A DNA stretch of 11,267 nt from Thermococcus sp. (GTDB lineage Archaea; Methanobacteriota_B; Thermococci; Thermococcales; Thermococcaceae). Position numbers and translations under genes: made by a program. The notes below the pieces were generated by a model. The model was not told the origin of the DNA, searched no databases, and saw nothing but the letters and a program-made list of their open reading frames with translations. Where the stretch lies: the NCBI GenBank assembly GCA_021157445.1, contig JAGGWM010000199.1:1-11267 (forward strand), given 5' to 3'. This document shows positions 6,808-11,267 of this stretch, in pieces; the stretch's first letter is position 1, and each line of letters begins with the position of its first letter.

Positions 6808-6838
6808 CTGACCTCCTCCCCGCCCTGAAGGACGAAGG
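6808..6838 (-). repeat. Right-end hairpin of the IS200/IS605 remnant
   Basis: On the minus strand an 8-bp stem, CTTCGTCC with GGGCGGGG around a TTCA loop, is followed by GAGGAGGTCAG. The order (GAA, GC-rich stem, TTYA tetraloop, GAGGTCA) parallels the ISDra2 right end/omega-RNA 3' end as I remember it (stem with CTTTAG loop, then GAGGTTCAA). The element would end near 6808 and any guide would be the following minus-strand bases. Confidence 0.55.
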
Positions 6839-6898
6839 TTCAGCTTTAGCCCCTCGCCAATGACGGAGAGGTTTGCAGGCCCATCACCTACTCCCGTT

Positions 6899-7116
6899 GC
6901 CGGTTTCGGCTCAGCCTGCAGGCCCGGTCTTGGGCCCATTACCCCTACCGCGCAGAGCGGTTCGGGGTTATCACCTCAAAAGCCACCTTCCAGAGTTTTT
7001 ACGGCCACGCCGGGTGGCGTGGAAAGTGGACGCCTTACAGCGTCGCCTATCCAAACGGATAGGCAGTAATGAAACCCTCTCAAAGAGGGTTTGTTCTCGG
7101 TGGCCTCTTCGAGGCC
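6899..7116 (-). ncRNA. Hairpin chain, omega-RNA-like region of the remnant
   Basis: Eight hairpins follow one another almost without spacers: 6899-6910 (4 bp), 6921-6936 (5 bp), 6947-6961 (5 bp, inside an outer ACCCC/GGGGT at 6941-6968), 7005-7022 (7 bp), 7029-7044 (5 bp), 7045-7064 (8 bp), 7072-7092 (9 bp) and 7102-7116 (6 bp). All are exact. TnpB nucleases use a guide RNA (omega RNA) made from the tnpB 3' end and right end, so minus-strand polarity is inferred from the terminus at 6808. Whether it is transcribed is unknown. Such stems fold on both strands. Confidence 0.45.
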
Positions 7117-7129
7117 TTACTATGCTGGC

Positions 7130-7141
7130 AAAACTTAAAAA
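7130..7141 (-). terminator. T-rich terminator after ubiD
   Basis: On the minus strand TTTTTAAGTTTT follows the ubiD stop within 4 nt, a plausible archaeal terminator. It also separates ubiD from the tnpB remnant. Confidence 0.45.
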
Positions 7142-7143
7142 GG

Positions 7144-10883: not shown

Positions 10884-11063
10884 ATGGTAGCTGAGATTGA
10901 TATGGAAACAATGGAGTCCCTAATTAACTTTGATATTATGTTTACGTTAGCAAAGAAATTTCTCCAAGAAGGGGGTCTTTTTAACTCCTCCCTATTTAAG
11001 AGAAAGAAAAGGGGTCAGAGAAAACTCCTCTTATATTTTTCTTCCGAAAACCTCGCCCTTTAG
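10884..11063 (+). CDS. Short ORF, probably the broken start of a gene
   Basis: A 59-codon ORF with an excellent ribosome binding site, GGAGGTGGTGA, 1-12 nt before the ATG. The first 33 residues (MVAEIDMETMESLINFDIMF, then TLAKKFLQEGGLF) look like a real helical protein start. After that the sequence (NSSLFKRKKRGQRKLLLYF) is basic and low in coding character, and the stop TAG lies inside the loop of the transposon hairpin at 11051-11070. The likeliest reading is a gene truncated by a deletion or an insertion near 10980, its rest lost. I do not recognise the family. It could instead be a complete small helical protein. The frame continues past the stop into the tnpB-like tail, which may be chance. 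Confidence 0.4.
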   Translation: MVAEIDMETMESLINFDIMFTLAKKFLQEGGLFNSSLFKRKKRGQRKLLLYFSSENLAL

Positions 11064-11070
11064 GGTGGGG
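11051..11070 (+). repeat. Left copy of the IS-type hairpin
   Basis: CCTCGCCC and GGGTGGGG pair (8 bp with G-T wobbles) around a TTTA loop. It is followed at 11070-11096 by a nested hairpin GATGC/GCATC around CACTC/GAGTG. The hairpin core from CGCCC to the last G is identical to the right copy. Confidence 0.6.
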
Positions 11071-11103
11071 ATGCAAACACTCTAAGAGTGGGCATCGAAA
11101 AAG

Positions 11104-11110
11104 TTAAATA
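11104..11110 (+). promoter_or_regulatory. TATA box before the omega-RNA-like region
   Basis: TTAAATA, preceded by AAAAG, lies about 30 nt before the first GC-rich stem at 11143. It would start transcription near 11134, giving a structured RNA of about 130 nt to the right end. Confidence 0.4.
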
Positions 11111-11134
11111 CCTCCATTACACGCATGATTTTGA

Positions 11135-11266
11135 GAAAGTATCCGGCGATTCCGTAAGGATAGCCGGTAGTGGCCGCGTGACCCGGCCAGTGAGAGCGAG
11201 GCTACCGGCAACGGGATGCCGGATGAGCTCTCACGAAGCTCCGCCCTTTAGGGTGGGGTAGGTCAC
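11135..11266 (+). ncRNA. Omega-RNA-like structured RNA
   Basis: Four stems follow in order: CCGGC/GCCGG (11143-11147 with 11163-11167, GTAA-capped inner stem), TGGCCG/CGGCCA (11171-11176 with 11184-11189), GTGAGAGC/GCTCTCAC (11190-11197 with 11227-11234) enclosing CCGGCA/TGCCGG (11205-11210 with 11217-11222), and the right-end hairpin (11239-11258, TTTA loop), then TAGGTCAC. The order GAA, stem, TTTA, stem, AGGTCA parallels the ISDra2 omega-RNA 3' end as I recall it. A guide would start just beyond 11266, outside the window. H/ACA guide RNA is the alternative. Transcription is inferred from the TATA box only. Confidence 0.5.
11239..11258 (+). repeat. Right-end hairpin of the IS-type element
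   Basis: CTCCGCCC and GGGTGGGG pair (8 bp) around TTTA, followed by TAGGTCAC. Near-identical to the copy at 11051-11070 and clearly related to the minus-strand hairpin at 6818-6837 (same order of stem, TTYA loop and GGTCA). Confidence 0.6.
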
Positions 11267-11267
11267 A

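Follow-up and report, generated by a model that had tools for sequence, protein, structure and literature searches.

A tnpB-less IS200/IS605-type element in Thermococcus with a promoter joined to a putative omega-RNA scaffold

The end of a contig of Thermococcus sp. (GCA_021157445.1, JAGGWM010000199.1) raises the question of what a GC-rich, strongly folding stretch of DNA does where no tnpB gene is encoded beside it. The whole stretch analyzed, 11,267 nucleotides long and here called the window (contig C130), belongs to a genome assembly of 1.16 Mb in 220 contigs that is 61% complete. Its GC content is 43.1%, whereas positions 11137-11266 reach 63.1%, a richness equaled by 63 of the 11,000 window stretches of 130 nt starting before position 11001; the GC-rich region described in the initial annotation is therefore real. 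The predicted fold energy of 11100-11267 is -66.6 kcal/mol (z = -3.29), and none of 200 shuffles was as good. We put the probability at about three in four that 11035-11266 represents a non-autonomous derivative of IS605 whose omega-RNA is driven by its own promoter and acts with a TnpB encoded elsewhere. Comparison with other sequences supplies the evidence on which this reading draws: the insertion and its borders, the homologies, the covariation, and the promoter conservation.

The window ends at an assembly break within a repeat: contigs C205 and C57 both open with the window's last 127 nt (11141-11267). All 12 congeneric genomes compared lack the element, and in them the DNA to the left of 11035 continues directly into what C57 has after the repeat; for G006, G010, and G011, where the pairwise alignment ends about 70 nt left of the site, continuity is taken from the multiple alignment. 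This empty-site comparison establishes C57 as the right neighbor of the window, as well as the borders of the element and its left motif CTTAT (Table 1), which occupies the left border as expected of a target-adjacent motif. None of the 12 comparisons revealed a target duplication. The border is ambiguous by one base (11035-11266 or 11036-11267), and the former was chosen because other copies end in CAC before varied bases. Position 11266, proposed initially as the right boundary, is confirmed both by the ends of aligned copies and by the empty sites. Thus, the element has both ends of its parent, lacks a transposase or tnpB gene, and was inserted precisely without duplication, as a non-autonomous IS200/IS605 element would be. 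In addition, the 3′ terminus of the scaffold falls on the right border of the transposon, and the flank then follows as the putative guide (12/12 relatives), the arrangement of a TnpB reRNA.

The insertion site lies where a small ORF (10884-11063) and pheT converge; gene names follow Pfam matches (PseudoU_synth_1 for truA, tRNA_synthFbeta for pheT, and Sec61_beta for Sec61-beta). The joined empty site reads TTATAG at the end of the small ORF and the window TTATAT, and from the frame the ORF had 50 residues before the insertion. A matching ORF end occurs only in G001 among the 12 relatives, the end lying earlier in nine and later in two. On the opposite strand (11035 / C57:128), PheT ends in FLRPFY(K/R) followed by four residues and a stop in 12/12 relatives, while in the window genome it would read FLRPF and then 21 other residues, the conserved short tail being replaced by the insertion. 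A second identical scaffold copy is found at C205:1-127, ahead of the Sec61-beta gene, with its left half absent from the assembly; the 11 of 11 relatives in which this locus was found read TTTTTTAT at the site, without the 127 nt. Contig C185 starts with a further copy of the scaffold that is 77% identical.

Table 1. Coordinates of the features described in the window.
Feature	Positions	Strand	Remarks
Second tnpB-less HgcC/omega-RNA-like repeat	6808..7143	-	Hairpin series (by eye), 3′ part ending GGAGGAGGTCA
Small host ORF, stop codon split by insertion	10884..11063	+	From the ORF list; extended by 9 residues into the element, now 59 aa
Target-adjacent motif CTTAT	11030..11034	+	Directly left of the element; TTTAT in other copies
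tnpB-less IS200/IS605-type element, whole	11035..11266	+	232 bp; precise insertion, empty site in 12/12 congeneric genomes
Left-end hairpin	11051..11070	+	8-bp stem, loop TTTA; most of the right-end hairpin has this sequence
Archaeal promoter	11096..11110	+	BRE-like CGAAAAAG and TATA box TTAAATA (11104-11110)
Junction of left end/promoter to right-end scaffold	11127..11136	+	By eye; within GATTTTGAGA; ATnnTGAG on both parent sides
Omega-RNA-like scaffold	11137..11266	+	Six helices; covariance-model match of 137.3 bits, the window being among the model's own training sequences
Scaffold helices 1-3	11142-11147/11163-11168; 11151-11153/11158-11160; 11172-11176/11184-11188	+	
Scaffold helices 4-6	11190-11196/11228-11234; 11206-11210/11217-11221; 11238-11246/11251-11259	+	
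Expected guide, first base	11267..11267	+	Continues in C57 from base 128; synteny in 12/12 relatives

The left half of the element (11035-11136) was overlooked in the first reading. Positions 11030-11135 match the DNA directly before the tnpB start, at 87% identity in C69 of the same genome and at 86% in G001, so that the window element consists of a left end, a tnpB promoter, and a right end. The tnpB elements of C69 and G001 carry the left-end hairpin at their own left ends, and in both a homologous promoter box precedes tnpB. The TATA box TTAAATA, noted initially as standing at the right distance, is indeed present and begins 33 nt before the scaffold. The usual archaeal spacing between TATA box and start puts the RNA start at the scaffold edge, and transcription would be expected to begin at about 11130-11136. 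Most likely, 11035-11136 represents the left end and promoter of a tnpB element, fused to the scaffold when about 1.15 kb of tnpB was lost. In G022 and G023, which belong to another genus, an insertion has a similar junction.

The scaffold is homologous to the 3′ end of tnpB elements together with their right end, as is that of a reRNA. It overlaps the last tnpB codons (tblastn, residues 388-422, 35 residues at 67%), in agreement with the earlier remark that a C-terminal tail and no tnpB ORF precedes it: roughly the last 35 codons survive, and they overlap the scaffold. The aligned copies extend from about 11128-11137 to 11266, beyond which the DNA differs save in same-site copies of two genomes. 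The DNA before the scaffold falls into two classes, one carrying a tnpB 3′ end and the other lacking tnpB and mostly carrying a leader with a TATA box.

Structural conservation was assessed in alignment A1, comprising 40 of 48 near-full copies (six that start too late and two without the start motif were left out). Standard pairs fill 96.3% of 1421 cells, and changes occur on both sides in 11 of 38 pairs, a count that is not exceptional alone in the 40-copy set (reached by 48 of 500 shuffles). Covariation amounts to 0.198 in these copies vs. 0.116 in shuffles (0/500) and to at most 0.075 in slid alignments, and to 0.208 vs. 0.133 (0/500; slid at most 0.081) in 38 tnpB-less copies alone, scores that shared ancestry inflates and that a structure derived from the consensus of the same sequences favors. 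The tnpB-less alignment holds 38 of the 44 copies, out of 69, that reach at least 109 bits, the six lowest being left out by choice; within it, 13 pairs show double changes (3/500 shuffles). The paired structure thus persists where no tnpB is encoded, and both sets display the conserved RNA structure of a reRNA. Helices 5 and 6 are 88% paired in the tnpB-less set vs. 97-100% in the others. The window's own minimum-energy fold pairs the 5′ part of the scaffold otherwise than the consensus does; covariation in relatives favors the local hairpin 11142-11147/11163-11168, whose outermost pair is a T-T mismatch in the window. Of the five exact stems initially described, the paired structure as such holds among 40 relatives, while the number is six and one helix carries that mismatch. 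Compensatory change, whose absence was to count against the stems, is present in both the 40 copies and the 38.

Copies of the element are widespread among relatives. A DNA search of 94 Thermococcaceae genomes found matches in at least 28, including the source genome (E ≤ 0.001, at most eight candidates scored per genome), and the 43 named stretches with the same scaffold pattern all lie on contigs of Thermococcus, Thermococci, or Thermococcales metagenome genomes. The exact pattern gave no match in viral contigs, and blastn gave none against plasmids. A covariance model trained on A1 (R1), which biases upward the scores of A1 members, yielded at least 132 matches at E ≤ 1e-6 in 12 of 13 genomes of the genus. 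The 101 matches of at least 60 bits were classified, their counts being limited also by contig ends: among these at least 101 strong copies, 69 are tnpB-less (some with a short tnpB remnant or decayed), 19 are tnpB-attached, and 13 are cut by contig ends. The tnpB-less copies number 21 in G010, 20 in G011, 15 in G003, six in G006, four in G012, two in G007, and one in the window's own genome. Where a genome has only one or two scaffolds (as G001, G002, G004, and G005), they are tnpB-attached.

The right ends read TTCAC in 77 and GTCAC in 16 of the 101 copies. Among 38 copies with the commonest (family-b-type) left end, TTTAT stands directly before the element in 27, TTAT lies within 16 nt in 33, and neither occurs in five, against a background of 0.0023 per position for TTTAT in flanks; for family-a copies, whose border is unfixed, TTTAT lies within 130 nt upstream in 11 of 17 inspected. 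The sequence [ATG]TTAAATA, the promoter box of tnpB-less copies also written as the TTTAAATA box, is present in the 110 nt preceding 51 of 69 tnpB-less vs. one of 19 tnpB-attached copies (expectation 0.019 per stretch), counts in which copies of one family share ancestry and are hence not independent events. In 29 of the 51, its distance to the scaffold is exactly 45 or 77 nt. Right-end homology, covariation, the 12 empty sites, and this distribution of the box all bear out the initial description of a free-standing omega-RNA-like gene with its own promoter.

From these comparisons we infer transcription, TnpB binding, cutting, mobilization, and action in trans for the element at 11035-11266. 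Internal deletion of a tnpB element would have left the tnpB promoter driving the omega-RNA scaffold directly. The transcript would start a few bases before 11137 and run through the scaffold and past 11266 into the flank; the RNA would comprise about 130 nt of scaffold and about 16-20 nt of guide copied from the insertion site. A TnpB from elsewhere, possibly of the lineage encoded on C69, would bind this RNA and cut a chromosome copy lacking the insertion, recognized as CTTAT followed by the guide, and repair from the insertion-bearing copy would restore the element. The element may thereby exploit TnpB to keep its place and a TnpA acting in trans to move. The 20-nt guide AGAAAGGTCTTAGGAAAATT has one match in the 61% complete genome (C57:127-146, up to three mismatches), as does its reversed control. 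The 16-20 nt after 11266, suggested for such a check, thus have no match beyond their own flank in this incomplete assembly, and keeping its own place would be the simplest function of the guide.

The presence of a same-lineage tnpB on C69 makes it plausible that the window RNA serves a TnpB encoded elsewhere. The search for a full-length tnpB, recommended at the outset, succeeded as to lineage and failed as to length, the C69 gene being open to the contig end and cut there at 268 codons. In G001, tnpB is open over 422 codons and encodes OrfB_IS605 and Cas12f1-like TNB domains. By synteny with G001, the right end on C185 belongs to the C69 tnpB element. Copies in G006, G007, and G011 resemble the window scaffold more closely (86-87%) than C185 does (only 77%); the window element therefore did not arise by direct deletion from the tnpB element spanning C69 and C185. 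The fit of the window scaffold to the C69-lineage TnpB is accordingly putative and is counted against our main explanation. Cognate tnpB is rarer than scaffolds in several genomes of the genus, with five loci in G003, three in G006 (all with stops), two full and several partial in G011, and three partial in G010. In G007 and G012, which contain tnpB-less copies, no cognate tnpB was found (best identities 28% and 30%), and the two well-kept tnpB-less copies of G007 contradict a simple rule.

The TnpB of the partner lineage contains PF01385 and PF07282, with RuvC-like acidic motifs seen by eye. TldR proteins are nuclease-dead TnpB regulators that have lost the RuvC active site. One cognate TnpB (L119:2022-3287, minus strand) apparently misses the usual C-terminal CxxC zinc-finger cysteines and keeps the RuvC-like acidic motifs, as judged by eye. 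At L119:1-1977 (minus strand) and in L005, a PIN-domain gene with intein-like and LAGLIDADG domains adjoins a full tnpB element. No Y1 TnpA was found in the 61% complete assembly of the window genome; five of 13 genomes of the genus carry the gene. Around the TnpA gene of G003 (L278), a Y1 element has a left end that by eye resembles the commonest tnpB-less type, and this transposase element is a candidate mover of tnpB-less elements.

The strongest competing explanation, although unlikely, is that the element is dead, the remains of a tnpB element in which scaffold and promoter are no longer active. Many tnpB-less copies have low scores and look decayed, and all three cognate tnpB loci of G006 contain stops. 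The four tnpB-less copies of G012, a genome in which no cognate tnpB was found, score 60.5-98.9 bits, a biased comparison since the model was untrained on G012. Against decay speak the intact ends of the window copy and its absence from all 12 relatives, the compensatory changes among tnpB-less copies, the promoter box kept in most of them, and copy numbers that imply spread after the loss of tnpB.

Far less probable is the recruitment of a transposon end as a regulatory small RNA of the host. The promoter of the element would suit such an RNA, as would HgcC4 and HgcC5 of T. kodakarensis, which are expressed without association with a transposase gene (PMC4247193). A right flank common between genomes was found for 10 copy pairs, seven of them tnpB-less on both sides; eight flank-sharing pairs were examined closely, and in six of the seven tnpB-less ones the right flank is better conserved than the scaffold. 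Sites common to species are thus few, and this together with the weaker conservation of the scaffold points to turnover rather than to a conserved role in the host. The insertion is moreover absent from the 12 relatives, and the guide has no second match in the 61% complete genome. The initial suggestion that the RNA had been taken over for regulation accordingly finds no support for this copy. In three pairs (L102/L246, L260/L247, and L115/L140), near-identical right flanks accompany unlike left flanks or elements, a pattern that suggests rearrangement or conversion at repeats, or draft misassembly.

It is also very improbable that the junction of left end and scaffold is a misjoin, even though the window ends in a repeat, its last 127 nt being common to C205 and C57: the junction lies upstream of the common 127 nt, a similar one is present in two genomes of another genus, and the two-sided synteny fits one insertion. 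Least tenable is the reading of the folding as a by-product of coding in a TnpB-tail remnant (ORF 11088-11261, 57 aa), to which the overlap with the tnpB 3′ end would point, as the ORF has no Pfam match at E ≤ 1 and compensatory pair changes occur in copies without tnpB.

The window contains a second repeat of this kind, directly behind a UbiD gene (Pfam; Table 1). It matches in all 13 genomes of the genus including its own, with up to 19 matches in one, some being right ends of tnpB elements. A search with a C166-type TnpB query found no tnpB within 1200 nt upstream of 21 copies (20 and the window's), except for two short C-terminal tnpB overlaps with the repeat. By eye, the hairpins of most of the 21 copies are preceded by a left end and a TTTTTAAA-like box. 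The usual left end seems to be missing from the window copy.

We consider a wider proposal, which in our view stands an even chance: Thermococcales would contain dispersed guide arrays, that is, many promoter-driven tnpB-less omega-RNAs with own-site guides served in trans by few TnpB proteins, arising independently in at least two distant TnpB lineages as self-homing parasites of another element's nuclease. If so, TnpB guide RNAs would act as separate genes scattered over the chromosome, and one nuclease would protect many non-autonomous elements. Such arrays would form a natural intermediate between guides bound to a transposon and multi-guide systems such as CRISPR, and would account for those known HgcC RNAs that lack association with a transposase gene. 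The proposal is testable in culturable Thermococcus species.

HgcC (RF00062) is itself a Thermococcales small RNA, and its 3′ hairpin and terminal AGGTCA align with those of the window element. T. kodakarensis has seven HgcC transcript sequences, of which five were detected (HgcC1-5): three have their starts within transposase genes, in the orientation of the gene, and two have no transposase association (PMC4247193). These transcripts look like omega-RNAs with and without tnpB, a reading that is ours and not that of the paper. The window yielded no Rfam match at curated thresholds; under loose settings, 11171-11265 weakly matched HgcC at 14.6 bits, for which membership was rejected (gathering threshold 50), and two further matches look like chance. 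The repeat at 6808-7143 is nearer to HgcC at 36.8 bits, still below the cut-off of 50. Across the genus, HgcC matches exceeded the cut-off in four of 13 genomes, and this search was left out of the counting because control matches arose in nine of 14 genomes, one over the cut-off. A literature search found nothing joining HgcC and TnpB, within a coverage that excludes most subscription papers, so the idea may already be published; nothing related by title joins TnpB, miniature inverted-repeat elements, and guide RNA.

In its general plan, the element resembles known TnpB systems. TnpB is an RNA-guided nuclease, and the ISDra2 reRNA is about 150 nt long, its last 16 nt or so being flanking DNA (PMC8612924). 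Solo-tnpB elements of S. islandicus have TTTAT at the left end (PMC10640517), and circular omega-RNAs have been described in archaea (PMC12558985). Like the reRNAs of ISDra2 and SisTnpB1, the window element has a right-end scaffold overlapping the tnpB 3′ end, a right-flank guide, and an AT-rich left-border motif. Unlike them, it lacks tnpB, its promoter is joined directly to the scaffold, and several genomes have many more scaffolds than cognate nuclease genes found. MITE- and PATE-like elements are non-autonomous IS200/IS605 derivatives, and as in these, the left and right ends are kept, no transposase ORF is present, and insertion occurs 3′ of a short motif without duplication; however, window-type elements keep a promoter and a covarying guide-RNA scaffold beyond the sequences for movement. 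IscB systems include omega-RNA loci that are not adjacent to their nuclease, and in both cases a guide scaffold stands apart from the nuclease gene, whereas the window type is TnpB-type and archaeal and has promoter boxes at fixed distances.
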